From Capsaspora owczarzaki ATCC 30864 (taxonomy: Eukaryota > Opisthokonta > Filasterea), in assembly GCF_000151315.2 (NCBI RefSeq), contig NW_011887301.1, forward strand, positions 836,021 to 900,020: 64,000 nucleotides of DNA, written 5' to 3'. The position numbers were made by a program, and so were the translations under genes. Below, one piece after another: positions 31,401 to 54,639 of the stretch (positions within the stretch are counted from its first letter, which is position 1; each line of letters starts with the position of its first letter). Under the pieces are notes generated by a model. That model was given only the letters and a program-made list of their open reading frames with translations. It was not told the DNA's origin and searched no databases.

Positions 31401-33733
31401 CTGCCGCCGCACCCCGCGCCCAAAAGTCGCTTGCCTCCATGTTTGCCGACGATGACGATTCTGGCGACATTTTCGGCGGATCTGGTGGTCGTGGCGGAAG
31501 TGACCTGTTTGGCTCTGCCAAGCCTGCCCCCGCTGCTGCTCCTGCTGCTGCCAAGAAGCTGCCAACTGTCAGTCTGTTTGACGATGATGACGATTTGTTT
31601 GGCAGCCCGAAACCTGCTGCTGCTGCTGCTGCTGCACCCACTGCTGCGTCCCCTGCTCCTGCTGCTGCTGCTGCCCCAGCTGCACAACCCAAAGCCAGCC
31701 CTGTGGCAGCTCCTGTCAAGTCCAAACCTGCCAAGGGCCTGTTTGGTGGCGATGACGACGAGGACGACGACTCCATGTTTGGCAGCAAGCCGGCACCCAA
31801 AGCTGCTGCTCCAGCTGCTGCGCCCGCGGCGGCGGCGCCTGCCGTGACCTCGCGTCCCCGTTCTGACACTGAAGATCTGTTTGGCACGCCTGCCCCTGCT
31901 GCTGCTGCTGCTAAGCCTGCTGCAGCTGTTCCCGCTGCTGCCGCGCCTGCCTCGCGCCCTCGCTCTGACACGGATGATTTGTTTGGCTCATCTCCTGCCG
32001 CCGTGGCAGCTCAGGCCGTCCCTGCCACAAAGTCAAAGACACCATCGAAAGGCTTGTTTGGCGACGACACGTCCGATTTGTTCAGCAAGCCGGCTGCCCC
32101 CGCTGCTGCTACTGCTGCTGCTGCTGCTCCCGCGCCGGCGGCTGCACCGCAAGAAGCAACAGTGTCGGCAAAGGCGTCGGCAAAAGTCGGCGCTCTTGGT
32201 GCAGGTTTGGCCTTCAACCCTGCCATGATGATGCCTGGCCAACGGCCCGCCAAGCGCTCGGGCTCCACTGCGTCGGAGGACGTGCTTGCCACCTCCTCGG
32301 GTGACTCTGAACGCCCGAAGAGCGGCTCGACCTCGTCTGCTGCACCTGCCGAAGACAATGCAAAGATTTTGCATCACGCCAACAAGGATCGTCCAAAGAT
32401 CCAAACGGCGCGCCGCCTCCCGTCTCGCAAAGGCCGCTCCAGCAACTCTGTTTCCAGCACGGCCACCCTGGACGAGGCTGATGACGAGCCAGAGGCCAAG
32501 ACCCCCACCAAGACTGTCACGATTGCGGCTGCGCCAGTGATTGTGCCCGCTGCAGCAAGCAAGTCGGCTGCTCCCAAGGCTGCTCCCGCCTCGCTGTTTG
32601 GCGATTCTACAAACGAGGAGGACATTTTTGCAACTCCCAGCCCTGCCAAGAAGCAAGAGGTTGCCCCTGCTGCTGCACCCGCTCCTGTTGCTGCTGCTGC
32701 CCCTGCCCCTGCGCCCTCGACGAAAGCCAGCAGCAACTTGTTCGGGGACTCCGATTCCTCAGACATCTTTGCCAGTAGCGCGCCCGCCACCAAGGGTAAA
32801 CGCGGAGCGAGCATCAAGTCCGTCGACCTGTTTGGCGAGTCGGACAGCATCTTTGGCCCTGCCAAGCCAGCGTCCAAGGCCGAGCCTGCAGTCGTTGCTG
32901 CCAGTCCTAAAGTTGCAGAGCCGACTCCTGCGCCTGCCCCCGTTGCCGAGCCCGCTGCGCCCACTCCGTCCAAGGCCGAGGCTCCCGCTGCCGCTCCTTC
33001 TCCCGCACCTGCGGCTGAAACTGCGCCGGCAAAGAAGAGCAAGTCACGCACCCCTGTGGATTTGTTCGCCGAGGACGACATCTTTGCCCAGGCTTCGACC
33101 TCCCCCGCATCCGCCAAGAAGTCGAGCAAAAAGAAGGCGGCCGCTGCGACTGCTGCGACTGCCGACGCTGACGACGCCCCTCGCAAGCCGCGCTCGCAGT
33201 CGACGCTCTCCACACTCTCCACCGTGTCGGCCGCCGTCGACGCTGTGGTCTCGCGTTCGAACGAAGCGCCCACCCCTGAGATGCTGTCGGCTGGCCGCGC
33301 CAAGGAGGATCTTGGCTTTAGCACTGCCATCTCGACCGCGACGAACGCCAAATCCTCTGCCATGCTGGACGATGCAACCACTGCCGCCGCCTCCTCCAGT
33401 GGCTCCATCTTTGACGCCCCGGTTGAGAAACCCACTGCTTCGGCCGCTGAGAACGAAGGCGAGGATGGCGAGCCGCTGCTGACAGACCTCTCACAAAAGG
33501 AGGAAAACCGCAGCCGATCGCGCAGCTTGTTTGGTGACGACAACACGGACTCGCTCTTCCAGACCAGCGCTGACAAGAAGGGCAAAAAGTCCACCTCTGG
33601 ACCCAAGGGTAAGAAGAAGGGAGCTGCCGACGAGGCTGCCAAGAAATCCAGCAAGACCAAGATTTTCATTTTCGACGACGACGCTCCTTCCATCTTTGAC
33701 GACCCTCTGAGCAAGGCGTCCACTGATGCTTGA
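28429..33733 (+). CDS. WASHC2: WASH complex subunit 2 (FAM21)
   Basis: Six exons, 28429..28725, 28845..29009, 29123..29188, 29274..29391, 29508..29666 and 29793..33733, give 1,581 aa. FAM21 is the WASH-complex subunit that binds retromer and recruits the complex to endosomes for Arp2/3 actin nucleation. The N-terminal head matches well: [87 protein letters not shown] and EDDDVGLLD. The tail, almost all in one 3.9-kb exon, is a long disordered array of LFa-type motifs (Leu/Ile-Phe next to Asp/Glu clusters, such as GLFGDDD, DLFGES, DIFASS), separated by Ala/Pro/Lys spacers. It ends in [15 protein letters not shown], like the animal protein. A Pro-only stretch follows the start Met. The assignment is very secure. 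Confidence 0.93.
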
Positions 33734-33979: not shown

Positions 33980-36713
33980 ATGCAGCACGAACGCGAGCCG
34001 CCGCCTGTACCCATTCGCAGCAGTAGCCCCGCGTGCCTGAGTCCAGAGAATCGCACGCCCAGCAACACAGCTACTCCTATCGCAGGTCGTGCAGGGAGCG
34101 AAACAGCGAGCGAGTCGTCGAGCTCTCACGGGAGCGCGCCACTTCTCGGCGGTGCTCTCGCGCAACCACATTGCAGCGATTCCGTCTCCAGCGACGTGTA
34201 CCGAATCAGCGTACGTGCTGTTGATGCAAATTATGCGATCGATGGCGACGCCCAGACGCAGGTGAGCAAAACCAGAGGTGGCGCAAATTGAACGCCGCGG
34301 GAAAAATGAAACGTATTTGAAACAACTTTCATCTTTCCCGCCAAAATCAGCAGCTCGAGTTGTTTCCCTGCTTGATGGTCACCCTACCCCACCCCCTCCC
34401 CCCAACGGATTTCTTGAGATCAGTAAAATGAAGGGACTGCACATTGTGTGAAGATCGACGGTTGGGTATCGTATTTGTTGCTGTTCTGGCGGATTGGCGG
34501 AGACGGGGGCAAAGCATGCCCAGTTCATCTCACAAAGTGCTTCGTGCAAGACAATGCTGAGTGTCACATGCATCAACACAGCGTTCACATGCACGCAACA
34601 CTCACATACGATTCCTTGCATTGGTGTTGTTTGTGTGTTCATTGTTTTTGGTTCGTTTGGGACCGTTGGTCTTGTCTTGAGAAGAGCCATTGTCAACCAT
34701 GCGCTTGTCCAATCATCCTTCACCAACTTACTTTTCTCAAACATGTGCCGAGCTCAACTAATTTGGATGCAACGCGTGTTCCATGGGGGGGGGGGGGAAT
34801 TTGTGACTGCAGATTTCAGATCTCAACACAACCGTCACGATGGACGCCACACTGCCGGGCAATGAACACGCGACCTCAAGAGTCCTATTCTTTCGCCGCA
34901 ACATGCAATGGGAACATGTGCTCAAGTCTGCCGCTGTCACAGTGGGTCTGCGTCCCTCTGAACCCGTCATCCTGGTCGAGTCTGCAAACCGCTCGCGGAT
35001 TGACTCTGTGACGGCGCTGTGCTTGGCTGCTTTGGAGCACCCGCCCCGCGAGGTGCTCGTCTCTCGCAGTGAAGTGCAGCAAACGCCAGCTCGTTCAACG
35101 CCAACCCCGCCACGACTACTCAACACGAGTAGCAGCAAGAGCGCGGCATCCATGACATCGTCGGATTGGTCACCCTCCTCGCGCACCTTTGCCACGCTTG
35201 ACTTGAAGCCGCCATCGATTTCCGCGCATACTGCCGAGGCACTTAGTGGTCTACAGATGCTGAGCAAGGTAGCGCTGCAACCCACAGACACGGCAAGCTT
35301 TTCGCTCGGCGCCGGCTTGCTGCTTCGACGAGAACCCACAACTTCCGTTCCCATGTCCATTGACCTCCAAGAGGAACAACCCAGCCCCGTCAGCATGGAA
35401 CGATATCAACTGCAGCAGCTTTCCGCGCAGTCGCCAACAGTGCAGTCGTCGACGAAGGTGCCAGCTCGGGCGTTCGCCCGTGCAAGGCGTCGCTACGTCG
35501 GCCCTGAGCGCTTCGACAACGACAGCAACTCGGTTGCTCCAACACTGTCCAATCCTGATTTCCACGACATGGATGGTTTCGACGCCGCGGCAGACCGTCG
35601 TGACGCGAACGATTCTTCCAGTGCCGACGACAGCGACTCCTCCTTCAAACCCTACACTCGCCGCAAGCGAGCCCGCTCCATCCAGCACGCGGTGATGGGC
35701 AGGCGCATCCACAAACGCGAGTACGAGCACCTCGAGGATGATGATGATGATGATTCTGATGACTCTATCAGTGAGGATACCAATGAGGTCGACTCCGACA
35801 ATTCCAGCGTCATAACTGACTCGGACGTGGACGTGGAGTCTCCATTGTTTCGTCCTGAGAAGGCTTCCAAAAAACCCCTTCCGACAGGTCAAGTCCGACT
35901 CTTGAGAATGTGGGTGATGACCAGAAACGACATTGACCGGCTGGCGCTGAATTACGTGCCACGAATCTGCTCATCGTCGCCCGGGTTGTGGCACAAGCAC
36001 CGCCAAGGTAATGCCCCAACGTTGCGTCGCTGGAAGATGACACCCGCTCCAGCCGTACTTCCCGCAAGCCTCTCAGAGCGCAGCCCTCCAGTGTCTTCGC
36101 CGTTTGCGATTGCACAACGATGCGTCTCATCCCCACCCCGAATCCGAGGGCCAACTGCAGTCAAGCGCGCAAAGACCTGGCGACGACGCCCGAGCAGATA
36201 CCTAGCTCCAGTGTTCATGGAGCTGTACACGGTGGCACAAAAGATTGACCGGTTCAAGTCCGGGTTTACGTACCACTCTGTCATTCTCGAACAGGAGGAG
36301 CGTCTGCTTGCAGGTCATGAGGACTTTATCCGAGCACAACTTGCGGATCCGACCGATACGAGCGTGCGGCACTCTGCCCTCACCTTGGTAACGCTGCAGC
36401 ACAGAACAACTTGTGCTCGCTAACAACATTTGTATTCATCTTGCTCACGCACTCATTTGTCATGGCTTTTGGCTGGAACCAACAGAGAGAAGCCGTCAAG
36501 GAGGCAATCATCTACAAACACATGTTTGCACAAAGTTTTCCGGACTCTTCCCGCGAGATTGGGGTCAGATTTGCCGTTCCGATGCTGGAGCATTGGAAAG
36601 CCAAACCGCAGACTCGCCCGCAATGGATTACAGACTCGTTCGATTTCGACGAAGCCATCCAGCGACAACACCAGTGGCCTTCGTCGACAACGCTGGCTCA
36701 CTTGTATTTTTAA
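33980..36713 (+). CDS. Protein of unknown function, 694 aa, acidic and basic tracts
   Basis: Three exons, 33980..34261, 34813..36387 and 36486..36713, keep phase at both joints and give 694 aa. I do not recognise it. It has a Pro/Ser-rich start, then a folded-looking part (residues about 75-170: VYRISVRAVDANYAIDGDAQ, RVLFFRRNMQWEHVLKSAAV, EPVILVESANRSRIDSVTAL), a Ser-rich linker, a basic patch (YTRRKRARSIQHAVMGRRIH) next to a pure Asp/Ser/Glu run that looks like a nuclear protein, and a C-terminal conserved-looking end (EAIIYKHMFAQSFPDSSREI, PMLEHWKAKPQTRPQWI). Intron 1 is 551 nt and carries a G run next to the acceptor. The start is the first ATG after the WASHC2 poly(A) signal. The coherent phase across introns argues it is real. 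Confidence 0.72.
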
Positions 36714-37269: not shown

Positions 37270-40200
37270 TTAGAGGTTGCACTGCGGAAGAGCAGCAGCA
37301 TTCAGGGAGTCGGCCAGCTTGGCATCGAGGGGCGATGCAGAGCTCAGGTCGACGTCCACGGCAAGATACTGCTTGAGGTTGGTCTGCAGGCTCGACAACT
37401 GCTGCAGAGTGAGCTTGGCAGCGAGCGCGGATGCGTCAAGAATCTGAGACTGTCGCTCGATTTCAGATTCGATTTCTTGGATGAGCTGACGGATCTGACC
37501 AAGCTCGGATGCAATTTCCTGGAGATTGACGCGAACGCGCGCAGCAAATTCAGCGAGCGTTTCCTGGTCGCCTTGTTCGCTCAAGGAAGACTGGAGCAGC
37601 TCGTCAATCTGCGAATGGATCAGCGCAAGTTCATCGGTCACATCCGCGATGCCCGGCAGAGCAACAACGCTCGAGGTGAGCTCGACGAGGTTCTCGAGGG
37701 TGCGAGTGCGAACGGCAGACAGGCTGCCGCGCAGTTCAGCCGAAATGAAGGCCAGCTGTTTGCCAAGGGCGGATGCGCGGCTAGAAATGGCGGACTCGAG
37801 CTGGCCCAGTGCGGCCGTTTGCTCGGATTGGATTTGAGCAGCAACATTCTTCAACTCTGTCAGAAGAGCATCTCGGGAATCCAAGTTGAGCGGCGCTTGG
37901 GACAGGTTCAGAGGAATGCGAGTGCTGCGCGTCAAGAAGCTTGAAACCATCTCAGGGAGGTTGGTTTGGAGCGCATCCAACAGAGCGGTGAGTTCCTGAC
38001 CAATGGCAATCTTTGCATTCACCCACATGGTGGATTGGGCCACGAACATTTCGCGCTCGAGAGGAGAAGTACTGTCGTCCGTCTCAAGCAGCTCAAAGAA
38101 GCGGCTGTGAGAGCCAATGGCTGCAATCAAACGCGAGAGCGCCGACTTGGTCGCAGTGTTCACGCCGAGGAGGATTGTCTCCACGTTGGCCGTTCGAACA
38201 GCAACATCAGCCACACCGGTGGAAAGTTTACGAGCGGCTGACTCGACGGCAGTCTCGGTGGCTTCCTTCAGAGCACCAAGAGTTTGAAGGGACGATTCGA
38301 GCAGCGCTTCGCGATGGCCCTCGATCTCGGCTTCCAAAAGAGCAAAGAGCTTGAGAACTGCGGGTGACTGAGCGGGATTGAGCTCCTGCAGAGCCGCATG
38401 CATTGACTCTTCAGCTGACTCGGCAGCGACGTGGAAGGCAGTGAGGGTCGATGCAATCGAGTTGATGGCCAGATCGAGAGATGCATGCAAACGTTCCACG
38501 TCTCCGCTTGCTCCGACGCTAGACTCGAGAAGAGCAAGGCGAGAGACAAGGCTGGAGATGGTAGACGAGTGAGAACGAAGCAGAGCTTCCGTCTTTGCGC
38601 CGCGCGCCTGGGCCGAAGACGATTGCAGAAGCAGAATGGAGCGATCGAGGCGATCGAGACGTGCCTGGATTTGACCGAGAGCCGAAGACAGGGATGCTTC
38701 AACGTGGCTCTTGCCCTCGTCGCCAAGAACGGCGGTAGCACGGTCAAGCAAGGCGAGAAGCGGAGTGTGGGTCGCGCTGATGGCGACAGCGGCATCGCCT
38801 TGCATAGCAGCAACGCTCGCCACAGCGAGTTCGGCACCATCGGCACCAGCGCGCAGCATGTCAACGTTGGCATCAAGATACGTCTTTGAAAACTCAAAGG
38901 CTGCGGCGGTCTCATCATACAAAGTCACGAGAGCTTCAATTTGGGCACGCTGAGCTGGCAACTTGGCCACAAGTGCGGTCAATGTGGCAGAAGCGGATTG
39001 CAAGCGAACAAACTCCGCTGACTGGGCAATAGCGGAAGCCTTGGAGGCCTCCACCCGAGCCAAAAATGACTCGATACGGGAGTTTACGTGAACGTCGGTG
39101 GCAGCGTCGCTGTAGCTCGCAATGAGCTCGGCAAGCTGAGCACGGACTGTGTCCAGTCGGGATTGCATCACGGGAAGGGCAGCGACGCCGGCGTCACGTC
39201 GAGCAATGCCGAGGATGGCCTTCAGGTCGTTGATGGCAACAGCAACAGCGGCAACCGAGGTGGCAATCTCGGACTCGAAAGTGTCCAGAGCCGCGTACTC
39301 GTCGATCAGACCGTAGATGATGTCAGCGGCGTCGCGGGTGCAGTTGTCGCATGGATCGCAGCGGAAGAGGTTGTTGCCGAGGGCGATTTGCTCGTAGCCA
39401 AGCAGACACTCGCGGCAGGTCGGGCCAGTGTAGCCGTTGGCAGAGTCGCAGTCGCAAGTGTAGTTGCCAACAAAGCCAGGAGCAACCGTGGTGCAGGTAT
39501 CGTTGTGGACGTCACCCTCCGTGCCAGGGACGACACGGGCAATCGAGTGGCCATTGCAGTCGCACTGGAAGCACTTGAGCGACTCGCCAGAGGCATCGAG
39601 AATAAAGCCCGTGCCGATGGTGCCGGGAGTGTCAAGACGGGTCGGGTCGCCATAGTAGCCAACCTCGCAGACCTCGCAGGTGGGACCGGTCGAATGACCG
39701 AGGCAGGCCTCGCAGATCAGGTTGCTGGGGTTGCCGGCAGAGTAGTCGCAGTTGTCCATCATGCTCGATTCGTCAATGTTGCCGTTGCAAATACACTCGT
39801 TGCAAGTGTCGAAGGACAAGCAGTCGCCAAGACCGCTGCCGCCAACACCAGGGGTGAGGCATTGCGTGGGCTGGCCAAAGTACGCGTCCTGGTTGCACGA
39901 GTCGCACGTGCGGCCCTCGTACACGACACCCGACGAAATAATGTTGAAGAAGCCGCCGGGAATGGAACGGGGGCAGCTGCACAGAATGGCGCTCTGGGGA
40001 TCAGCAGCAGCGTCGTCAGGGTTGACGCTGTGGTCGAAAATGCACGTCTGCGCTCCGCCACTGACGCCGCCAAGGCTGTTGTCAAAGAGACACTGCTGGA
40101 AGGTGCCAATCTCGGTTTCGGTCAGCAGGTCAAACTTGCTCGGCGCAGAGTGGTAGCACTTGCAAGGGGTGCACGGAATACCGCCAGCAGGGTTGCCAAA

Positions 40201-43200
40201 GTAGCCGTTCTGGCACGAGGCGCAGCGGTGGCTCTCGGCGTGCGACAGAGCGCACTCTAGGCAGATACCAGTGTCGGCACCGCACATGGTGTTGGCACCA
40301 AAGCATTGCTCAGAGCACGGGCGACAGGCGTCAGTGAGCGCGTCCGAAGTGCAGTCGCCGTCGACCAAGGAGCAGGCGTTGCAGGTGTCGCTGGCAGGAT
40401 CAAACCCGGCGCTGGTGAGCTGGCGGAAGAAGCCGGGAACGCAAGTGTCGCACTCGTTGGCAGCGCCGTTGGCCGTGTTGCCGCCGCAGTTCAGGCAGAT
40501 GCCGAGCTCGGGCGTGCAGATACCCGGCGCAATGGTGGGATTGTTGAGCGAATGTCCGTTGCAGTTGCAAGGGGTGCAGTCTTGCTCGCGCATGGTGGTA
40601 ATCACTGCCGGGTCGGGCGTCGGCAAGTCCCAGCCAACAAATGCGGCAGGATTGACGCGGCTGTTGCTAGCAACGCATTGCTCGCAGTTGTTGCCCTCGG
40701 TGTTGCCTTGGCAGCCAGAGCACACGCCAAAGTTGCTGCAGGTGGCCGAGTGGCCGTAGCAGGCGCACGGGGCGCAGTCGCGGCCGTCCTCAGAGTTGCC
40801 AAAGTCGTTCCAAGTGTTGGGTTTGCAGTTCTCGCAGCTGTCGCCCTCAGAGTTGCTCGAGCTGGTGCAGGTGCACAGACCGCCTTCGGCGTTGCAAGTG
40901 TCCAACCCACCGATGGGCGACACGGAATGGCCGTTGCAGTCGCACGGCGAGCAGTCGTCCGTGTAGTCGACAGCAGAGCAAGCGGTCGGCACGCCAACGG
41001 TGCAAGGACGGAAGAAGGTGGCCACGCAGCCTTGGCAGTGGAAGTCGTTCGTGTTGCCGTCGCAGGGCTGGGGAGCGCCAGAAAAGTCAGTCATGCAGTC
41101 GCCACCAAGCGCGTTGCACTCGTTCGAGACATAGTCCTTGTGGCCGTTGCACTCGCACGCCGAGCACGAGGTGCCCGACTCGGCATTGCCGGTGGCACTC
41201 CAGAAGCCGACAATGCAAGACTGGCACTGATCGCCCTCAGAGTTGGAGGCCGGGTCGCAGTCGCACACGCCGCCATTGGGGTTGCACAGAGCGGGGCCGA
41301 CGCCGTGGCCGTTGCAAGCGCAGGGAATGCAATCGTCAGTGGGGTCGATGGAGCCGTCGGGGCGGAACGGGCGGTAGAAGCCGTCGAGGCAGAGCTCGCA
41401 GTTGAAGCCGGTCGTGTTGTCCTGGCAGGGGTCGCCAGCCTGGTCGCAGTTGCCGCCAGAAACGTCGCACGTCTCGGGCGAGCCCTTGTGGCCATTGCAG
41501 AAGCAGGGCTCGCATGTCTCGCCGTCGACACCGTCGCCAGTGCTCGAAAAGTGGCCAGGCAGACAGCTCTCGCAGTGGGGGCCAGTGACGCCGTCGGCAG
41601 GGTTGCACGAGCAGCCGCAGCCGTTGCCGTCGCACTGATCAAAGCCGCCGACCTGGGGCAAAGTGGAGTGTCCGTTGCAGTCGCAGCGCTCGTTGCTGCA
41701 CGACTGCAGGCGGCACGCGTACAGATCGCTGCTCGACAAGGGGGTGTTGTTGCATGGGCTGGTGGAGCGGCACCAAGTGGCCTGGCACGACTCACAGTGG
41801 TCGCCCGTTGTCTCGGTGGTCGGATCGCAGTTGCAGACGCCGGTGGACGCGTCGCAGCCGCGGACATTCTGGCCGGCGTCAGCAAGCGAGTGGTTGTGGC
41901 AGTTGCAGAGAACGCACGCGCCGCCAGTGGCAAAGAACTTGGAGAAGATGGCAGAGGGCAGGTCGCGCGCAGAAACGCCGGGAACAATCACACCGCTGCG
42001 GCCGCCTGATTCAAAGAACAGCGACTCGAGTTCGGACACATCAATGTCGGCCAGGGCCGGACCGTCACAGACCAGCACGTTGTCGACGGCGGGAGCAGCG
42101 AGATCGCAGTTGACCACCTCGGCAGGCAGCGAGTTGCGGCGGTTTTCCCAGTGCTTGTTGTCGCACGAGCCGCAGGTGTCGTCTTGCGTGTGGTGCTCGC
42201 AGCCCGTGCACTGGCCGGTGGCGTAGTTGCAAGTGGACGAATGGCCGTTGCAGATGCAGGTGCCGATCGCCTGCACCTCGGAGATGCCAAAGTAGCGGTA
42301 GGCGGCGTCGAGATCGAGCGACGAGGGCTCAATGCCGTCAAACACGAGGCGCAGGTCGGAGATGGCCTGGTTGCCGAGAATGGTGTCGCTGGCGCGGAGG
42401 TACTCGAGCACGTCGAACGTGACACGGCACGGGCGCTGGCGCTGGCCGCGACTCACGCAGTCGCGGGTGAAATCTTCGGTAACAGAGTCGGTCACATCAA
42501 TCCACGTGCCAGAGGGCGCAAGGGCAACCCACAGCTCGAGGCGGGACTTGGTCGAGGTCGAGTGACCGGACTGGCGCGGGAGGATGGCGGCAGAAGGGCC
42601 ATCGACGGGGTACGGCAGCGGGTAGTGGGTGAGGTCGATGGTGACGTACTTGACGCCAAAGCCAAAGGCGCCGAGCTCGATGTGGACCTGACGGTAGGTC
42701 GGGTTGTCGTCTTGGGCAGCGCACTCGAGCAGCGACTGCAGGTGCGATGTGCCAACCTGCTGGCAGCGACGGCTCGACCACACGCCGACGGCCGAGCTGG
42801 TGGCCCCCGAGCCGATCGAGTACGTGCTGTCGGTGATGGCGCTGGTGGTGCGCGAGCTGGTCGTGTACTGCGAGATGATGGCGATTTGGGAAGTGGGCAG
42901 AATAGCCGTACCCAGGAGCGGAGCGGTCAGCAGGTGCGACAGAGCGCGCGTCGATGAGCAGGAGGCCTTCAGGCGCGAGTTGTCGAGGAACCACTTGTGC
43001 GCGCACTGGGTGGCATCAATCTGCGTGAGGGCCGTCAGGCTTTGGGGAGACGTCATCCACCCGAGGTAGGAGCCCTGCGAGTTGCGCACAACCACGTCGA
43101 CTTTGGTTGGCGCGGAAAACAGCAACGTGAAGGTGCGGCCGCCAAACTCGGCTTCAAAGTCCGCGATGGCGCCGGCGTCGTGGATTTGCGCCTGGGCGGC

Positions 43201-44010
43201 AGTGTAAATGCCAAGCCAGGTGCTGGTGGACGTGAACGACAGGCCGTTAAAGTCACGAAGGGCAATGGCGACAGAGCTGGCGCCGATGGGGTCGCTCAGG
43301 TACTGGAGCGACTGGGCAAAGAAGGCGTCGAGCCATTCCAAAAAGTGGTCGGCATCCGCTTGGTCCACCAGCAGAATGGTGCTCGTGTCGAGCGTCAGCG
43401 TGGGCAAAATCTCAAACATGGTGTCTGCGTTCACATTGTCCACCACCTCGTACTCGAAATCGCTGACACTGCTGGAGGACTGGCGGAATTGCAGAAAGCC
43501 TGGACCAGAGTTGGTAAAGCGAATGACACTGAGTTCGGGCTCCTGACGCAAAGGAGTCAGCTGGGCCGTGACGGAAATGGCGCTCTGGGCGGCAACGTTG
43601 GTCTCGGGGGCTTGTAACACTGCCGGGAGAGAGAAGGCCAGGAAGAACTCTTGGGATGTGACAGTGGCGCCGTCGAGCGTTTCGATGGTGATGCGGTAGG
43701 TGAACTCGTCGTTGACTTGGCTCGGGGCAAGCTCGATGGCAACGTTCGAGGAGGAGGCGTCCACAGCAGTGGTGGTTGCGCTCACGGTCGGGATGGCAAC
43801 CCACTCGTCGTCGTTCTTGATGGCACGCTCGACAGTCGCAGTGCAGCAGTTGGTCTCGCCGCCAGTCTCGCCGACAAGCAGGTTGAGATGCACGTTCTGC
43901 TCGGCGCACACCACCTTGTCCGAGGGTCCGGTGACAATAGACACACCATGTGCGGACGCGCTGATCAGCGAAGCGAGCGCAACAAAGAACAAGATGTTGG
44001 CCAGTTTCAT
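37270..44010 (-). CDS. Laminin-like secreted protein: signal peptide, LE repeats, coiled coil
   Basis: One uninterrupted exon encodes 2,246 aa. The ATG at 44010 was chosen over upstream in-frame codons because it begins a clear signal peptide (MKLANILFFVALASLISASA). Residues about 25-580 are a beta-rich region whose end (LVFDGIEPSSLDLDAAYRYF, then GTCICNGHSSTC) resembles the join between a laminin N-terminal domain and the first laminin-type EGF (LE) module. Residues about 583-1553 hold some 12-13 LE modules, recognised by repeated C-x-C-N-G-H starts and CxxC...C endings (ACNGHGVGPALCNP, DCNGHSVSPIGGLD, ECNGHKDYVSNEC); a few are degenerate. Residues about 1555-2246 are Ala/Leu/Ser/Glu-rich heptads predicted to form a long coiled coil, ending PQCNL with a Cys near the C terminus. 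Laminin G domains are absent, so the layout is that of a beta/gamma chain. A matrix role is inferred. Confidence 0.85.
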   Translation of the reverse strand: MKLANILFFVALASLISASAHGVSIVTGPSDKVVCAEQNVHLNLLVGETGGETNCCTATVERAIKNDDEWVAIPTVSATTTAVDASSSNVAIELAPSQVNDEFTYRITIETLDGATVTSQEFFLAFSLPAVLQAPETNVAAQSAISVTAQLTPLRQEPELSVIRFTNSGPGFLQFRQSSSSVSDFEYEVVDNVNADTMFEILPTLTLDTSTILLVDQADADHFLEWLDAFFAQSLQYLSDPIGASSVAIALRDFNGLSFTSTSTWLGIYTAAQAQIHDAGAIADFEAEFGGRTFTLLFSAPTKVDVVVRNSQGSYLGWMTSPQSLTALTQIDATQCAHKWFLDNSRLKASCSSTRALSHLLTAPLLGTAILPTSQIAIISQYTTSSRTTSAITDSTYSIGSGATSSAVGVWSSRRCQQVGTSHLQSLLECAAQDDNPTYRQVHIELGAFGFGVKYVTIDLTHYPLPYPVDGPSAAILPRQSGHSTSTKSRLELWVALAPSGTWIDVTDSVTEDFTRDCVSRGQRQRPCRVTFDVLEYLRASDTILGNQAISDLRLVFDGIEPSSLDLDAAYRYFGISEVQAIGTCICNGHSSTCNYATGQCTGCEHHTQDDTCGSCDNKHWENRRNSLPAEVVNCDLAAPAVDNVLVCDGPALADIDVSELESLFFESGGRSGVIVPGVSARDLPSAIFSKFFATGGACVLCNCHNHSLADAGQNVRGCDASTGVCNCDPTTETTGDHCESCQATWCRSTSPCNNTPLSSSDLYACRLQSCSNERCDCNGHSTLPQVGGFDQCDGNGCGCSCNPADGVTGPHCESCLPGHFSSTGDGVDGETCEPCFCNGHKGSPETCDVSGGNCDQAGDPCQDNTTGFNCELCLDGFYRPFRPDGSIDPTDDCIPCACNGHGVGPALCNPNGGVCDCDPASNSEGDQCQSCIVGFWSATGNAESGTSCSACECNGHKDYVSNECNALGGDCMTDFSGAPQPCDGNTNDFHCQGCVATFFRPCTVGVPTACSAVDYTDDCSPCDCNGHSVSPIGGLDTCNAEGGLCTCTSSSNSEGDSCENCKPNTWNDFGNSEDGRDCAPCACYGHSATCSNFGVCSGCQGNTEGNNCEQCVASNSRVNPAAFVGWDLPTPDPAVITTMREQDCTPCNCNGHSLNNPTIAPGICTPELGICLNCGGNTANGAANECDTCVPGFFRQLTSAGFDPASDTCNACSLVDGDCTSDALTDACRPCSEQCFGANTMCGADTGICLECALSHAESHRCASCQNGYFGNPAGGIPCTPCKCYHSAPSKFDLLTETEIGTFQQCLFDNSLGGVSGGAQTCIFDHSVNPDDAAADPQSAILCSCPRSIPGGFFNIISSGVVYEGRTCDSCNQDAYFGQPTQCLTPGVGGSGLGDCLSFDTCNECICNGNIDESSMMDNCDYSAGNPSNLICEACLGHSTGPTCEVCEVGYYGDPTRLDTPGTIGTGFILDASGESLKCFQCDCNGHSIARVVPGTEGDVHNDTCTTVAPGFVGNYTCDCDSANGYTGPTCRECLLGYEQIALGNNLFRCDPCDNCTRDAADIIYGLIDEYAALDTFESEIATSVAAVAVAINDLKAILGIARRDAGVAALPVMQSRLDTVRAQLAELIASYSDAATDVHVNSRIESFLARVEASKASAIAQSAEFVRLQSASATLTALVAKLPAQRAQIEALVTLYDETAAAFEFSKTYLDANVDMLRAGADGAELAVASVAAMQGDAAVAISATHTPLLALLDRATAVLGDEGKSHVEASLSSALGQIQARLDRLDRSILLLQSSSAQARGAKTEALLRSHSSTISSLVSRLALLESSVGASGDVERLHASLDLAINSIASTLTAFHVAAESAEESMHAALQELNPAQSPAVLKLFALLEAEIEGHREALLESSLQTLGALKEATETAVESAARKLSTGVADVAVRTANVETILLGVNTATKSALSRLIAAIGSHSRFFELLETDDSTSPLEREMFVAQSTMWVNAKIAIGQELTALLDALQTNLPEMVSSFLTRSTRIPLNLSQAPLNLDSRDALLTELKNVAAQIQSEQTAALGQLESAISSRASALGKQLAFISAELRGSLSAVRTRTLENLVELTSSVVALPGIADVTDELALIHSQIDELLQSSLSEQGDQETLAEFAARVRVNLQEIASELGQIRQLIQEIESEIERQSQILDASALAAKLTLQQLSSLQTNLKQYLAVDVDLSSASPLDAKLADSLNAAALPQCNL

Positions 44011-46407
44011 GATTTTCTGCGAAACCCAAACACACACACAAGAGCAAGCCAATGCCAGCGTTGAGTTTGAATGTCTTTGCAAGACCACCGTATTGGCTTT
44101 TTGAGATCAACGACCAATGCTTCGGTCCTTGTGTCGTGAAGAAGGTGTCAGGGTGTGCTCAAGGTGGTACAAAAAGTCGAGGAATTTTTACGATCGAATT
44201 TTGGTCGACCAGGGCAACATTCGAGTGTCTCATCTCTCTCTCTCGTGTCTCCCCCCCCCCTTCCCTTCCCGGGGGCTTCGGACCGCCATCGATGCAAGGG
44301 CGATCGAGCGGCGTGAATCTTTTTTCTTCTCTTCTTTTCACGCTCTCACGAAGAGCCACCCTGGCAGACACACAAACAATGCGTCCAGGCTCGTTTGCGC
44401 CATTTCTGGGGCATTTTTCGCATTAATAGGTGAAATCGTTGCCGAGATACAACAAGCGCACAACGCGCAGACGCACAAGCACACCACAGTCACAGAAACA
44501 CGCACCAACGCACTTTTACGCAGGTCCTGTTTGATTGCATCTCTGCGCATCTGCTTCGGTTCATTTCGTCGTGATCACCATATTCTCGCGTTGTTTTAAT
44601 TCCAAGATCGCTCTTTTTGCGCTTTTTTTTCCTTTGTTTTGGAAAAGGCGAAGCGTGGTGATGCGCCTTGCCGAGGGTGCAACCGGGCGCTCCAGTGGCT
44701 GCTTCTGGGTGCTGTAGTATCTACGCAGTCAGATTGCCTGAACGCACAGCACCAGCGCGTCCAAGCGAGACGCCAGGACTGTTGGAAGCAAACGAAAACG
44801 AGAAAAAAAATACAAGCTCTTGGCAAACCCACGAGCAGATCTCCACAGAAGATCTGCGCGTTTGTTTGCGACACTGCGTTGCGCTTCAGGCAGCAGGTGG
44901 TCGAGAGCAAAACGGAAGGGGATTTGGAGATGCTGGGGGAAGAGGGGGAAAGAGGAGGAAAGCGGTGGTGGACAGGCGAGGGGAGTCATCGTTTATCCCC
45001 AAGGGAGGAAAGAAGGGCGAGGCAGCATTCGACCGACCATTAGAATTTTAAAAGAAAAAAAAAAAGAAAAAAAAAGCCAAAGAGAAAAAAAGATGAGAAT
45101 GAGATTCAATTTAAAGAGGGCGTGATTTCGTGATTTCGTCGCGCAAATACATGGTTAGGCTTTGGACAACAACACCAAAGCATGCACTAAAGCATGGTTC
45201 TGAAAGCTCGGTCTTTTTGCATGGCACCAGCATATGTATGTCGTTGGCGGGAGTCAGTTTGGTGTCAGGTTTTTGGGTGTCAATGGTTTGGTCGCATCAG
45301 CTGCTGCTCGGAATGTCATGCAGGGTCGCTATCGATACAAGAAATAGAATCAGGCACAGACAGATTTAACAGATTTGACGGTCCTCGACCTGGCAAACAG
45401 ACTTGTTTTGAGGGGGCTCGTTTTCCGGGATTCTGATGAATGCAAAAAGACATAAGAACGTCGGATTGTGAAAAAGAGTTAAGCTCCGCCTGCCGTCTCG
45501 CCAGCGGTGCTTGGTCTGGGAGACACTTGGGTTATGCACAAAAAAAAAGTGAAACTCAAAAGTAGTAAAAGGGAAGCACGAGATCGCGGCACACGCAGGA
45601 TTGGGCGGCGCTACCACTCGGTCTTTGAGTGGAGCACACGCCCAAGCACAGAAGCTATCGGACGCGCATTGGCGCCCAACAATTTCATGTACGGAGTTGA
45701 TATTTGTCAGTAATGTCAGATTCGAAGTAGCATGTTGCTGGTGCTCGTACTATTCGGGCGAATGTTTGGCGGCGGATTTTCAACCGCTTCTGCGAAAATG
45801 TGAGCGCTAATTATGGGCGATCAAAGCGATGAATCAGCCCTTTTCCTCCGTCACCAAAGGATGCAGCCCTCCTGCACGCAATGGGCACCCAACCTTCGCA
45901 TGACCTTTGGTTTGTTGCTCCTGTTGAATGAACGCGGACGGCAACGGCAAAGGAATGATGAGTAAGTAACCGTGCAAAAAGATCCGAAACTGGAGTCATT
46001 GTCAAACGTTGTCGGTTTGTTTTTCGCTGGATTTGGTTTGTTTTACTGCAGAATGCAGAAATATCCATTCTTTTGCTTTGTACATTCAATGAAGAGGGGG
46101 GGGGGATTGGCATCTGGCATAGTTAGATCCATTATGCCTCGATTTGGAGTTGCCGCGCGCCCCAATTGCTTTGCGTCCTCACCATTTCGCTCCCGTCCCC
46201 CCCCCCGAGTCTCGTGGCTTTCGTAGACTCGCGTATGACATGTTTGTTGTCATTGGCTCGAGTTGCGCATGTTCACTTGCTCTGCGATGCGGTTCCGAAC
46301 GCCCAACGCGAAAAAAACCAAAAATAAACAATAATCAATACAATACAAACTCTTGGTCCAGTCTTTTGCTTTTTCGTACTGTTGTTTGTTCGCCCCTTTC
46401 AAACGAA
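44011..46407. other. 2.4-kb gene-free spacer between divergent genes
   Basis: This separates the laminin-like gene (-) from the RasGAP gene (+). It contains an A-rich block (about 45048-45094), a C run near 44251-44260 and scattered pyrimidine runs, but no frame with family resemblance, no tRNA and no clear mobile element. It is the longest such spacer between genes in the window and probably holds both promoters. Confidence 0.6.
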
Positions 46408-49400
46408 ATGGCGTCGCCGTTGATGCGCAGCGCCACGCAGCGCGAGCATGGAGCGCACATCCGGAAGGACCACAATCTGTGGGTGAGCGTTGTGGAGGCC
46501 AAGAACCTCGACATTGATGGTGAGTAAGCCAGCATGGAAATTTTGAACATTATTATTTAAATGATAAAATTTGAGGCTTTTTTTTTTTTTCCCTTTGCAC
46601 GCCCTTTTCGCTCGCATTTGTGCTTGGTGCACGATCACGCTCGCCCACACACACTCGTACTCCAACGTGCTCGTGCTTGGTGCTCTCTTGCTGTGTGCTC
46701 CTTCTCATGCGCGTCCGTCTGCAAACTCTGCCTCGCTTCTCGTGGAACATGACGGAAAAAAAAAAAAAAAAAAAAAAAAAAGCCAATACAAAACCAAAAC
46801 AAAAGAAAAGGCCTGTTTGTGTGTGAGTTTCAACGAGACTTTCATGAATCGAGAACCGTCAATACCTGTCAGTGCGTCCGCGTTCTCATGTGGAGCAGCG
46901 CGTTTGTGGCGGAGGGAGGCGGGGAGGCGGGGGGGGGGCGTCCTCGCACAACGCGCGAAATGCCACAAACGCTCCCCGTCCAACTGAGCCACGAATTGGT
47001 TTGCATGGTGTGTAACACCCACCGCGCACAGAGGCAGTTCCGTTGGCTTGCCATGTGTCAACGCAAACCCAGAGAGGCAGGCGGAAAGTGGCAGGGAGTG
47101 CTCCAGCGACGAAAGGATTGTTTGCTGGAAGACAAATGGAAACAAAAAAAAAAAAAAAAAAAAAAAAAAGCAGAGCCATCACAAATCAAAATCAAAATCC
47201 CCCATCTAAGGGCGTGTCATTGCAGATTCACGCGCCGCCTTGATCTGGAGATTTATTTAGCCTGGAATGAAACCTGCAGCATGCTTGCATTGGTGGGTTG
47301 GGGGGTGGGGTTGGGTCTCGATGGCGGTCTCGTTTTTATACCCGTCGACAGCTGTCTTTGTGTATTTGACTGACTTTTGTATGACCTTGCTCGTTGTTCG
47401 CTCGTGCAGATCGTTGCAGCACCTACTGTCTCCTGAAGATTAACAACCAAGAACGCGGCCGCACCAAGACGGTCAAGAAAAATCAAGCGCCATTGTACAA
47501 CGATGACTACACCTTGTACGCATTCACACTTGTTCCCTCTCTCTCGTCGTTCCTTCTGTTGCCCGAACTCACCAGCTGTTGGAAATTGCTTGATATGCTC
47601 GCGCAGTAACTTGAGCGACACCTTCAAGGAGCTCTCTGTCGTCGTTTGGAATGAGCAAAAGCGAGGCAAGTGTGATTGTCGTGTGCGTTGCCTCTTGCCC
47701 TCTCCACTCGTCTCACTCGATCTGTCCTTCAATCATTTGCCGTTTCCAAAACTACTACTCAAACACTTGTCTTTACCAAAAAAAAATAGGCGACAAGCCG
47801 CTTGGCCAACTGCACATTCCCAAGGACTTTTTGGCGTCAGACCACTTGCAGCACGAAGAATGGTTTACCATCGAACCGGCTCTGGACGAGGGCTCGGTGA
47901 AGGGATCGGCGACGCTGGAAGTCATCTACACACGGGGTGCAGGGCCCGACGACGCAGACAAGGTGACTGTTGTTGTCGTCTCCGCCAAGGACTTGATCAG
48001 CAAGGACGCGAACGGCCTGAGCGACCCGTTCGCGGTGCTGCACCTGCTGCCCGATCCGGAATTCGAGACGACGCAAAAGACCAAGCTGAAGAAGGAGACG
48101 CTGGCTCCCGTCTTTAACGAAATGTTCAACTACAGCATCCCCAAGAAGGGCGGCATGCCAAAGTACCGCTGCCTGTTCTTCACGCTGTGGGACTGGGATC
48201 GTTTTGGCGAGAATGACTTCCTCGGCCAGGTGCTGATTGACTTTGAAGACCTGTTCCGAGTCAATCCCAACGACAACCCCATCAAGTACAACGAATCGCA
48301 CACGCTGCTGCCCAAGACGGTGATTGATCCGATGGCCGCTGCGCCTGCTGCGCGCGATCACAAGTTTTCCATCCACAGCTACAAGTCCCCCACCTGGTGC
48401 TACGTGTGCTCTGGATTTTTGTATGGCCTGGCTCGTCAAGGCGTCAAGTGCAAGGACTGCGGGTTTAACTGCCACGAAAAGTGCGTCATGCAGGTTCCTT
48501 CGAACTGCCGCGGTGACAAGATGAAGCGAATCAAGAAAATGAGCAAAGGACTGTTGAGTCACAAGATTACGTCGCAACAAGCGTACGTGCTCGAAGTGCA
48601 AGACGACTTGCTCAAAGCGCTTGCGCTCGGACCGCAAGCCCCTGGTCGCGCCAAGCCGCACTTGTTTGAGCCAAAGTTCTTCAAGCAGCCCTCCAACTGC
48701 GGTCACTGCTACTCGTCAATGTGGATGGTTGAAGGAGCCCAATGCACCCACTGTGGTCTGAACTGCCACGAAAAGTGCAAAATCAACATTCCGGCCTTGT
48801 GCGGCACCGTTGGCCAAGTGCGCATCAAGTACAAGTACACTGACGACCCAGTGCTGTCGCTCAGCACCTACCTGCCGCTGTACGAAGTTTTGCCAGAGCA
48901 AGATTACTACATCATCATGTTGCTACAAGCTGCCAGCAACCAAAAGGAGGATGTTGCCCGCTGTCTTGTCCGCATCTTTGAGGGCCAAGGGAATGCGCTC
49001 ACCTTCCTGAACACGATGGCTCGCAAGGAGGTCACTTCAACAGCCGATCCCAACACCATTTTCCGCGGCAACTCGCTCGCGACCAAGGCATTCGATGCCT
49101 ACCTCAAATTGCATGGCATGCCTTACCTGCACTCCGTCCTCAAGCCAATCATCTCGTCCATTGTGTTTGACAACGTCAATTGCGAAGTCGACGAAACCCG
49201 CCTTGACAAGGGCGAGGATTTGAGCAAGAATTGGAAAAACCTCAAGGCCATCGTTTCGCGAACATTTGATGCCGTCCTTGGCTCGGCAACCAGCTGTCCC
49301 TTCGAATTCCGGGTGCTGTTTGGCCATCTCCGCGAGCTTGTGCAAAAGCAATTCCCGACAGACGCCGTGATTCCATACACTGCCATCTCTGGATTTATCT

Positions 49401-50625
49401 TTCTGCGCTTCTTCTGCCCCGCCATTTTGGGCCCTCAGCTGTTCGAGATGATGGACGACCTGCCTTCCCCCCGTATTGGTCGCACGCTGACGCTGGTTGC
49501 CAAGACTCTGCAAAACCTTGCCAACCTGGTCGAGTTTGGTGGTAAGGAGCCCTTCATGGTGAAAATGAACGAGCTTATTGTCAAGCGTCGAGATGACATG
49601 AAAGCCTTCCTGGACAAGCTATCGGTAAGAAACGCCCTCTCCCCCCCCCTCTCGCCCGGTTCTGATGACCATGGTGACGTGGAAGCACAAGGGTCAGCAA
49701 ACAGCGTACTCACCCGTTCTTTTCTTTTTGTTCTTGTTCTTGTTCTTGTTCGCTTTTTTGACAGACCCCCGTGACAGTCGCTTCGGCTCCCAATGCCAAA
49801 ATCGATCTTGAGGTTGAGCTCTCCCGCTTGTATCGCTTCTTCCTGCAATGCCGCGACAAGATGCACGTCGCCCACAAAGAGAGGGGCCAGAACGCCCCCG
49901 GAAAGAAGGAAGTTGAGAGAATTCCTTCCTGGGATCCGCGCTACAAGGAAAGCAAACAGCCTGAGGTATGTCGATTCGTGCGGTCGTTTTGTGCCATGAG
50001 ATTGAGTTGAGTTTGGTTTGTGGCTTTTTTTTTTTTTGCGGAAAAGCTGTCGGATTGGTATTAACCGACTTTTTTGCTTGCTTTCAACAACAATTGTTAG
50101 AACCAAGTCACGTTCGTGCGCTTCCTGGACGTTCTGGAGGATCTGACTCGCAAGCACAAAGTGGCCGTGTCGCAGGACTCGGAGGCATCTTCCCCAGCGC
50201 CGCTCACCCCACGCTCGCGACTTTCGGGCCTGTTGGGCCAAAACCAGTCTGCCATCCTTCAGGAGGTCACCGAGTCGTTGTTGCGAACAGCGCGTCAAGC
50301 ACTGTCCTCGCTGGCCAATTCAGACGGCGTCGAGGAGGCGTTGGACTCTGTCAAGCCACTACTCGTTTCTGCGCACCAGATGGTGCTCATTGCCGAGTTT
50401 GCCTTGCCCGATATCACTGCCGAAGGCACCAATCAAGCCAAGGTTGCGCTCGAACTGTTCTCTGCACACATTCCCAAGATTGCTGGCGTTCTCAAGAATG
50501 TTGCTGTTGGCGAAGGCGCAGACTTTAATGTTCAAAACGTGGTCGCTGGCATGACACCTGTGATCAAAGAATTGGGCGTCTTGGCTTCCAATCTGAATTC
50601 GGCAGTTGCTCACCTGCCCGTGTAA
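46408..50625 (+). CDS. RasGAP with two C2 and two C1 domains
   Basis: Six exons, 46408..46519, 47410..47515, 47607..47665, 47790..49624, 49765..49965 and 50101..50625, give 945 aa. Order: C2-A (about residues 18-110; NLDIDDRCSTYCLLKINN, GRTKTVKKNQAPLYNDDYTF), C2-B (about 150-245; VSAKDLISKDANGLSDPFAV, FTLWDWDRFGENDFLGQVLI), C1-A (about 282-330; HKFSIHSYKSPTWCYVC ... HEKC), C1-B (about 382-430; HLFEPKFFKQPSNCGHC ... HEKC) and RasGAP (about 447-700) with the arginine-finger context TIFRGNSLATKAFD and the FLRFFCPAI motif. Both C1 modules keep the His/Cys zinc pattern. The C-terminal 190 residues are helical and unrecognised. RasGAPs speed GTP hydrolysis by Ras; C1 and C2 would target it to membrane by diacylglycerol/phospholipid and Ca2+. 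Intron 3 uses a GC donor (GAG|GCAAGT). Intron 1 is 890 nt. Confidence 0.9.
46756..46781 (+). repeat. Poly(A) tracts in RasGAP intron 1
   Basis: An A run of about 26 nt lies here, and a second of similar length lies at about 47143-47169, both inside intron 1 of the RasGAP gene. Confidence 0.9.
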
Positions 50626-51098: not shown

Positions 51099-54000
51099 TT
51101 AGAGCTCGGTGTGAGCGGCATTCTGTGATTGACGGCGAAGGCGCGCAAGAAGCTCTCGATGAGCATCCTCGGCCTTTTTGCGTGACGCCGGGGCGACAAA
51201 CAGCTCGTTATTCCGTAGCTCGCCGCCAACTTTTCCGAGGAGCTCGTTGGTAATCAGCTTGATGGTAAACTTTTCCTTGACAATCTCGCGATGACCAAGG
51301 CCATTCACTTCAAGGACAGTGGTGGTAAACTCTCGGCCTTGGTGCATGTGCGACGAGGAAAGCCGAGTGTATTCGGGCTCGACCGTGTTCATCAATGACA
51401 GAACGTGCTCCTCGCCCCACTGGCCAATGGGATGCTGGTAGTACTCGATTTTGCGCGAAGGAACGACAGTCACGTTGGTTTCGCCTTCGTGCCAGGTATT
51501 TGCCCAGCTCAACGACGAGTATGGCACGGTCTTGTCGCCAGAACGGCCAAAGACATTGCGCTGTCCCGCATATCGACCTGTGAACTGGCGAGTCAGGGAC
51601 GAATCGTCCAGCGTCGATGAAGGCGGGTTGTTGGCCAAGGACAACAGCACTGGCGAGCGCGTCTTGATGCCAAAGATGCCGCCCTTGTCCTCGTAAATCG
51701 TTGCGTCCGTACGAGGCTCCATGGTGTTGGGGAGTTGCGAGTAGACGTAGCCAATATCCGTCGGAAGGTTGACACCGTACAACATGACCACATGGCGAAC
51801 GGGAGGCCGCGTGGGCGGAGCCGCCAACGGATTTGGCTTGCGCTCCAGGTAATGCTCGCGAAGCATGGTTTGCAAGTCCAAGAAGCGAGTATCGTTCAAC
51901 GCTTCTCCGAGCATCCCGAACATGGCGCCACTGCTTACTTCGGCAGAAGAAAAGATGCGCTGGGTCCCGTTTTGAAACCGGAAGGCAATAATCTCGTCAA
52001 ACTTGACTGGCAAGTCTTGGCCGTGCTCCTTTTCAAAGTCTGCGTCCTCCCTGGCCTCGTCTTCGTGATCGGCCAACTGATGCAGTTCGTCCTGCTGCTG
52101 CTCGCGCGCTTTGCGGCTCTTCTTCGTTGCGGCCATGAGGAGCTTCTGGATGCGAGTGTCTTGGTGGGGCAAAAACCAGTGGACGCTCCCAAACGATTGC
52201 GACAATGTTTTGGCCTGGAGTTCAGAGATGGGCAGGCCCATGTTCAGACCAGAGACGATGCCGCGCAAGGGCTCGTTTGCTCCAAGCAACGGTGCGCCCA
52301 GACCAAAGTACGCCCACACGTTCTCATCGAGCCAGCTTTGCCAAGAAGTTGGGTAGTGGAGCTTGAGCCAGTCCACAAAGTAGAGGAAGAGCGAGTTACC
52401 CTGAGAATGGGCCATGATGATGGCAGGATGCTTTTTGTGACGGACGGCAAACTGGATTCGCTCGCGGACGGAAGTGAAGAGCATGTCGCGCTGCTCGAGC
52501 ATGTCTGGACTCAAACGCCAATCGTAGGGCACAGCCACAATGGACTGCACGTCGTAGAGCAATTCGCTGGCGAGGGACTTGATCACAACGCCAAAAATCG
52601 TGGTCGGATTGCCAGTGAAAACGCCCGGCGCGAGCTCTGTCAGCGCCGCCGTTCCTTCGGCAGGTCGGAGCTTGCAGTTCTCGGGATCGGTTTGGTTGAA
52701 GCCGAGGGCAAGGCATTCAAGCCAGCACCGCGAGTCGGTGGTCAGGGTTTGCAAGATTTTCTCCACGCTCACCCACACGAGGTCGCCGACGTGGATGCCA
52801 AACCCACGGCACTGCTTCTCGCGCCAAGCAATCAAGCGGCTGCTCGCAAGGCCGGGGAAGAGAACCACGGGAGGCTTTTGATCCGTTTCACGCATAAAGT
52901 TGCGAAGGAATTGAAACTCGACCTTTTCGTACAGCTCGGGCGTCGACAGCTGGTAGCGACGCAGCGACTCGCGATCCACCAGCCAGATCCGAGAGACTTC
53001 ACGTGCACGCACAGTGGTCAATCGTGATGTGCCGTAAAGGGCTTGAACGGCGCCAAACGAGCCGCCTGCGGTGATCGTGGAGAGGTGACGAGGAGCATCG
53101 CGACCCGGCTCGGAGAGCAGCACATCCAAGGAACCAGACTCGACAACGTAAAACTCGGTGCTCTTGTCATGCTGTCGGTAGACAAGCTCGCCGGCAGCAT
53201 AAGTGCGAGACTGGAAGGAGGACAAGAACGAGTGGCGATGGTGCGCATCAAAGTTGACATCAAACTGCAACAGGTCGCTGAGCATTTTCGTTGTTTGGTC
53301 GAGCTGGATCGGGCCGCCATCGGCGTCGTCGTTGAGGATGACAACAACGACCACAGAGCAAAACTGGCCGATGGTGACGCCCTCGTGCTCCACGAGCGCA
53401 ATTTCAACCGTTTCGTCGGGCTCGGGATCGGAGTCGTCGTGAATGATCAACGTAAACGTCTTGTCTGCGCCATCGCCGTCTGCCCAGTGCAGCGTTGTAT
53501 GCTTGCGGATTCGCTCAAAGTCGCCCACAGGCGTAGCAGTGCCTCCGACATACTTGAGGCGGACGCTCGCCTCGCCAACTGTCCCACCACGCCGCTGCAC
53601 CGTCAGTGTGACAGAGCCAGCACCTTCGAGGACACGGTACTCGCACTGGGCAAAGTCAAGGATGCCCGTTTCGTGGTGGTTGTCAATGATTTGCACCGCG
53701 GCGTGCTCAATCTCACCGAGCGACGCCCCCTCGATATCTCTGAGCCAGACCGACACTTGGCCGCCGTCGTGAATGTCGGCGATTTGCAGGGGGATTTGCT
53801 TGGTGCTGGCAGTGTCGTCCGCGAGCCAGCGAAGAACAAACGATCGGCGCCAAATGTCGGCGCTCGCGAGCGCGGCCTCGGGCGAAGTCAGCTTGTTGCT
53901 GTGAATGTGCAGCCGAACGGACGCATCCGAGTTGTCGCCGTTCATCCGATGCACGGCGACAGTGACTTGTTTGGCATCCGAGGACACGCGATAGCTGGTG

Positions 54001-54311
54001 GCCGTGAAGCTCAATGTGCCGCCACCTGTTTGTTGGACAAGCGACATCAAGTTAGCAACGGTGCTTGTTTTTCAAAGCAGACAAAGGGGGAAAACAAGGA
54101 CGGGAGGACGTACTGCAGCTCGGGGCAGTGATTCGGCACATTGACTGGCAGCCCATCTTGAGAATGCCACACGACTTGGAGTGGGGATGGAAGTGCGTTG
54201 TGCAGCTGGTTGGGTCGAGCAATCTACCGCCATGAGAGCACGTTCTTGATGCCTGCGATCCGATTGCTGCACACGACTCTGACCAGTAATCGAAATGCGC
54301 TCCGCACGGTA
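51099..54311 (-). CDS. Calx-beta / cNMP-binding-like / LCAT-PDAT acyltransferase fusion (5' end unresolved)
   Basis: The main exon 51099..54025 is joined in phase to a Cys-rich exon 54114..54311 (acceptor AAACAG, donor GTACGT). Order in the main exon: two Calx-beta-like modules (about 54019-53690 and 53668-53340; GTLSFTATSYRVSSD, GILDFAQCEYRVLEGAGSVT, DDSDPEPDETVEIAL), a cyclic-nucleotide-binding fold (about 53290-52930; YAAGELVYRQHDKSTEFYVV, SFGAVQALYGTSRLTTVRA) and an LCAT/PDAT-family alpha/beta hydrolase (52885-51100). In the last I see VVLFPGLASSRLIAW, the nucleophile motif AHSQGNSLFLYF, GAPLLGANEPLRG, the Asp motif SGDKTVPYSSLSW and a His in GEEHVLSL, so the Ser-Asp-His triad looks intact. 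In the cNMP pocket the usual FGE is FGA, so nucleotide binding is doubtful, though the Arg is kept. A likely first exon lies upstream (see 54714-55111). Expected reaction: acyl transfer from phospholipid to diacylglycerol or sterol, or phospholipase activity. Confidence 0.85.
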
Positions 54312-54584
54312 CTGTCCGCCATTTCAGAAACCCAAACAAAAAACAAACAAAAATAGAAAGACATACAAATTGTTAGTGTTGTTACAACAACAAAGACAGC
54401 CTGTCGCTCAGACCAACCCAACAACAAATCTCAAGATCGAGCATGAGTGATTTTCGGGGGGCAAACTCTGATCGAACGAGTCTTGATTCGACTGGTTTGA
54501 GAACACCACTCGATTATCTTTGACAGTAAACGCTGAATCTGAGAACGCGAATCTAGACACGAGATATCCCCGCCGTAAAACGCT

Positions 54585-54639
54585 AATTCTGAGAACGCGA
54601 ATTCTGAGAACGCGAATTCTGAGAACGCGAATTCTGAGA
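54585..54639 (-). repeat. 15-bp tandem repeat, about 3.7 copies
   Basis: The plus-strand unit aattctgagaacgcg repeats three times exactly and then partly; a diverged copy lies at about 54530-54553. It falls upstream of the Cys-rich exon of the acyltransferase gene, probably within its first intron. Confidence 0.9.

Follow-up and report, generated by a model that had tools for sequence, protein, structure and literature searches.

A single reading frame joining Calx-beta, cyclic-nucleotide-binding and LCAT-family domains: a possible regulated lipid enzyme

Does one gene really join Calx-beta modules, a cyclic-nucleotide-binding (CNB) domain and a hydrolase of the LCAT family and, if so, could the first two gate the third? 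The locus lies in the window, by which we mean the whole 64-kb stretch of DNA that was analysed. The minus strand carries an open reading frame at 51099-54071 that extends from stop to stop over 990 codons without interruption, and the first methionine, at 54047, yields a protein of 982 amino acids. The earlier note had described one open frame of almost 3 kb, and this is upheld both by the frame itself and by a codon-usage score: of 10 blocks, each of at most 300 bases, every one scored best in the main frame. The score was trained on five other long frames within the window, two of which lack any Pfam match at E≤0.001 and are assumed to be coding; the domain matches are independent of this score and far beyond chance. 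The features of the locus, all on the minus strand, are as follows, with the basis of each in brackets.

54114..54156, minus strand: candidate for a short first exon of 14 codons, MGCQSMCRITAPSC (sequence inference; coding score +0.09)
51099..54047, minus strand: main coding frame, 982 amino acids from the first methionine, stop codon included (open reading frame and coding score)
53682..54023, minus strand: Calx-beta module 1, residues 9-122, a diverged module that lacks most of the calcium ligands (comparison with module 2 and with genome and plasmid frames)
53322..53672, minus strand: Calx-beta module 2, residues 126-242 (Pfam, CALX alignment, genome profile)
52896..53288, minus strand: CNB domain of PKA-R type, residues 254-384, with the Pfam core, residues 281-364, at 53207-52956 (Pfam, PDB, genome alignment)
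53010..53057, minus strand: phosphate-binding cassette FGAVQALYGTSRLTTV, residues 331-346, in which A333 replaces Glu and R342 is kept (alignments)
51405..52877, minus strand: LCAT-family alpha/beta-hydrolase domain, residues 391-881, Pfam 422-864 (Pfam, PDB)
52404..52406, minus strand: catalytic Ser548, AHSQGN (alignments)
51534..51536, minus strand: catalytic Asp838, GDKTVP (alignments)
51405..51407, minus strand: probable catalytic His881, GEEHV, with H872 as the alternative (alignments disagree)
51102..51404, minus strand: C-terminal extension, residues 882-982 (nothing above the Pfam cut-offs)

The fusion of Calx-beta, CNB and LCAT domains in a single frame is real. Pfam places the three in the order that had been claimed, all above the curated cut-offs: Calx-beta at residues 126-222 (E=1.6e-9), cNMP_binding at residues 281-364 (E=3.7e-13; 49.7 bits against a cut-off of 27.5) and LCAT (PF02450) at residues 422-864 (E=6.4e-50; 170.9 bits against a cut-off of 21). 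The profile search proposed in the earlier note thus returned significant matches for all three families, with module 1 taken alone below the cut-off, and the PDB likewise gave matches for all three domain types within the single frame. A search of NCBIfam returned four weak matches, all far below cut-off. An AlphaFold model of residues 1-385, made without an alignment, had a mean pLDDT of 34.6 and is uninformative on folds and on contacts between domains.

The 5′ end of the gene is less clear. A short first exon at 54156-54114 is possible, separated from the main frame by a candidate intron of 88 bases (54026-54113) with a GTACGT donor, a TGCTAAC branch-like motif and a CAG acceptor, in a phase that fits residue 8; this exon, of 14 codons, is too short for its coding score to carry weight. 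An alternative first exon starting MADSTVRS (54322-54228) had a coding score of -0.23 and a donor, GTAGAT, that we judged weak, and it was set aside. A cysteine-rich 5′ exon had also been proposed. This found no support: along the stretch 54108-54340 none of three frames scores as coding (-0.15 to -0.16), and the scores resemble those of the wrong frames of the main open reading frame. A 15-base repeat, AACGCGAATTCTGAG, occurs in about four copies upstream of the gene, at 54579-54639. Elsewhere in the window, a convergent neighbouring gene occupies 47615-50625 on the plus strand, and its long frame (47615-49771) carries C2, two C1 and RasGAP domains. An open frame of 2278 codons with laminin-type EGF repeats runs from 37273 to 44106 on the minus strand, and in neither of two plus-strand open frames, 29426-33730 and 34807-36420 (1435 and 538 codons), does Pfam recognise a family at E≤0.001.

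For the LCAT domain, the matches to known structures become stronger when the sequence is searched as a profile with three paralogues: group XV phospholipase A2 (PLA2G15) is matched at 6e-60 and LCAT at about 3e-49, compared with E=4.2e-16 and about 1e-9 for the domain alone. Ser548 aligns with the active-site serine of group XV phospholipase A2; entry 4x92 has alanine in this column, and we take it to be an active-site mutant. The suggestion of an intact Ser-Asp-His triad is borne out for Ser548 and Asp838, both of which are invariant in all four LCAT sequences (the window protein and three genome paralogues), while for the histidine the evidence is split. An alignment restricted to the C-terminal pieces puts it at H881 and a longer alignment at H872, and the Pfam match ends at residue 864. 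H872 is slightly better by its spacing from the aspartate; our preference is for H881, which agrees with the GxEH motif seen in the paralogues and in phospholipase A2 and is probably the catalytic histidine. Cys413 and Cys441 lie near cysteines of lysosomal phospholipase A2 that form a disulphide, a placement that could point to a luminal enzyme.

Of the two Calx-beta-like modules claimed, the second is secured by Pfam, and the first is recognised by comparison with related sequences and missed by Pfam and the PDB. Module 1 alone scored 14.5 bits against the Pfam Calx-beta cut-off of 27 (E=0.037), and a PDB search with it gave no match at E≤10. Yet it is 31% identical to module 2 over 117 residues (BLAST E=1e-9 as a single comparison), with a score of 37.4 bits; when 2000 shuffles were compared, 1454 produced any hit at all and the best reached 25.4 bits. 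We also built a Calx-beta profile from eight domains of the host genome, two of them nearly identical, drawn from ten loci among 51 genome matches, the window's own included. This profile matched module 1 with a probability of 59% (E=9.3e-5), module 2 with 97% (E=5.3e-11) and the CNB domain, as a control, with 5% (E=0.0079). Another Calx-beta-matching frame of the host genome aligns over residues 10-244, covering both modules (best E=3.9e-13), and the pair is likewise spanned by two Nostoc plasmid proteins that carry a Calx-beta annotation (residues 12-240 and 10-237). These alignments, taken together, argue that module 1 is a Calx-beta homologue.

The modules differ in their calcium ligands. 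In an alignment with CALX (3rb5), module 2 keeps eight of the nine NCX calcium-ligand side chains, namely E141 (E385 in NCX1), D176 (D421), D204/D205 (D446/D447), E209 (E451), E212 (E454) and D240/D241 (D499/D500), and has N239 in place of D498. The NCX1 numbering was placed by letter count in the printed alignment, and in a shorter alignment, made with NCX1 (3us9), the D446 region is displaced by one residue. Module 1, read by eye from its alignment with module 2, keeps about one of the nine. The NCX1 ligand list is taken from excerpts of PMC3386913, according to which the NCX calcium site sits at the boundary with the following domain, a junction that calcium makes more rigid. In the window protein the domain that follows module 2 is the CNB. 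A calcium role for module 2 is consistent with the ligand side chains that it keeps.

The closest PDB relatives of the CNB domain are regulatory subunits of PKA, from Euglena (E=1.3e-21) and mammalian RI (3e-17 to 1e-15), and Pfam finds just this one CNB in the protein. Of the 15 other CNB matches listed for the host genome ten were aligned, and the nearest, at locus L020, is 43% identical; the gene holding this exon we take to be PKA-R-like, in view of the PDB matches of the window CNB to PKA regulatory subunits. L020 reads FGELALIYGTPRAAT and the window protein FGAVQALYGTSRLTT. The change from FGE to FGA that had been noticed here is confirmed by the alignments, in which Ala333 occupies the Glu position. 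In the CNB cassette the glutamate touches the ribose 2′-OH and the arginine touches the phosphate (PMC10354285, in excerpt). The window protein therefore lacks the ribose-contacting glutamate and keeps the phosphate-contacting Arg342. The loss of the glutamate makes binding of cAMP doubtful; the domain could accept another ligand, and it may bind nothing.

A possible membrane anchor was also part of the earlier proposal, and this found no support: no membrane span is seen in the protein, the top 19-residue Kyte-Doolittle mean (1.54) lying on a Calx-beta strand. CNB is a cytosolic type of domain. From these two points we infer that the protein faces the cytosol, as a soluble or peripheral enzyme.

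In the host genome (27.5 Mb in 29 contigs), the protein is matched over its full length by the window gene and by no other. Three other LCAT genes are 22-25% identical to the window LCAT domain, and their matching frames (418, 438 and 469 amino acids) gave no Calx-beta or CNB match among the best candidates scored. On viral contigs, no relative was found among seven pattern-matching stretches in a search with the whole protein or among 78 stretches in a search with the LCAT alignment. Contigs of prokaryotic genomes, scanned with two degenerate patterns from four diverse LCAT sequences, gave one relative in 66 stretches: a bacterial LCAT-like frame of 602 amino acids, cut by the contig end, at locus L034 3-1811 in a Patescibacteria bin. 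These scans were narrow and prokaryotic or viral, and so say little about a eukaryotic gene. Three plasmid records match, all at the N-terminal Calx-beta part and none over 80% of the query: two from Nostoc, to residue 240 or less, and one from Flagellatimonas, to residue 346. Searches of open-access text found no paper linking LCAT with Calx-beta or CNB among the matches listed, and the main text of PMC4967820, on sterols in Capsaspora, contains neither ‘LCAT’ nor ‘acyltransferase’. The text searches and the module-free paralogues are consistent with the idea that no known LCAT or PDAT enzyme has such modules, and go no further than that. As far as could be checked, this appears to be a new arrangement of known domains.

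What might such a protein do? The reading that we hold, tentatively and at a little below even confidence, is that of a cytosol-facing phospholipase or transacylase of the LCAT family with a Calx-beta/CNB regulatory front end, on a plan like that of neuropathy target esterase (NTE). One intact gene would then encode a soluble or peripheral lipid enzyme, whose LCAT domain would use its Ser-Asp-His triad to take an acyl chain off a phospholipid, with water or an alcohol (a sterol, for instance) as the acceptor. The N-terminal half would serve as a regulatory arm made up of a structural Calx-beta module, a calcium-binding one and a PKA-R-type CNB. The binding tip of the calcium-binding module should point at the CNB, and the C-terminal end of the CNB would lie directly before the first hydrolase strand. 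By analogy with the CBD1-CBD2 tandem of NCX, calcium might stiffen the Calx-beta/CNB joint; the altered CNB pocket might take up a ligand or dock a partner, which would shift the end of the CNB and hence the catalytic domain. What the analysis shows is the single frame, the identities of its domains and, by alignment, the ligand-equivalent and catalytic residues. That calcium or a CNB ligand gates the lipid enzyme is plausible; the location, the substrate, the calcium effect, the CNB ligand, the helix positions and the coupling in this scheme are what we infer.

The same domains could be put to other uses. It is possible, though we lean against it, that the CNB and Calx-beta domains no longer sense anything and form a scaffold that places a constitutively active enzyme on a membrane or a partner. 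The lost CNB glutamate and the disappearance of most ligands from module 1 would suit such a role; against it stand the near-complete set of ligand side chains in module 2 and the phosphate-binding arginine that the CNB keeps. The CNB might instead be a PKA-R-like dock that holds the PKA catalytic subunit near the lipid enzyme, as is reported for fly Swiss Cheese/NTE. The window CNB is PKA-R-like and NTE offers the precedent, but Pfam finds a single CNB here and NTE docks through a separate PKA-binding region (PMC9025805, in excerpt), and we regard this explanation as improbable. An accident of reading, in which a pair of adjacent genes, or a pair of transcripts made from a single locus, appear as one frame, is very improbable indeed. 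An in-frame methionine, at NFMRETDQK, does lie just ahead of the LCAT part; against this, a mere 26 residues separate the end of the Pfam CNB core (364) from the start of the PVVLFPG strand region (391), the coding score is unbroken along the main frame, and 982 codons pass without a stop.

The regulated, cytosol-facing enzyme that we prefer admits a more specific version, which we think unlikely but worth stating: that a cytosolic LCAT-family enzyme is under the joint control of calcium and of a ligand other than cAMP, held in a PKA-R-derived pocket that lacks the ribose-binding glutamate, and thus represents a second, independent invention of the NTE plan of joining PKA-R to a phospholipase. 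The best-known LCAT-family enzymes are luminal or secreted. If the proposal were true, second messengers would be tied to the turnover of membrane lipids through a cytosolic member of the family that answers to calcium and to an orphan CNB pocket, and the idea that a CNB domain can acquire a new ligand could be put to the test; and, if the host belongs, as we suspect, among the unicellular relatives of animals, the protein would bear on how signalling parts of animal type were combined before animals arose.

Among known systems, PLA2G15 and LCAT share with the window protein the LCAT alpha/beta-hydrolase domain, the aligned serine and aspartate and the CW loop. To our knowledge both are lysosomal or secreted and lack Calx-beta and CNB domains; the window protein, unlike them, has a front end of ~390 residues in which no signal-like hydrophobic stretch was seen. 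Plant phospholipid:sterol acyltransferase (PSAT) and PDAT also belong to the LCAT family, and the run GAPLLG...SG...GLPISE of the window protein presumably resembles plant PSAT1; we know of no PSAT or PDAT with CNB or Calx-beta domains. The likeness in plan is to PNPLA6/NTE, in which PKA-R-like CNB sites precede a phospholipase catalytic domain (PMC9025805, in excerpt). NTE differs in having a patatin catalytic domain, three CNB sites and a membrane span, where the window protein has LCAT, one CNB and Calx-beta. Neither patatin nor the NTE P-loop domain has a Pfam match in the window protein at E≤1. The host genome also holds an NTE-like frame (locus L019 859-3060, minus strand; NTE_Ploop E=9e-54, two CNB stretches), and the LCAT fusion therefore seems to be a distinct combination. 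For a changed cassette with a different ligand, trypanosome PKA-R is a precedent: there, cassette changes of another kind accompany nucleoside binding, and they include loss of the very arginine that the window CNB keeps (PMC6440977, in excerpt). Finally, the tandem of Calx-beta modules, one with a near-complete calcium site, recalls CBD1-CBD2 of NCX. Unlike NCX, the window protein is not part of an exchanger, and its calcium-competent module is the second, which abuts the CNB.
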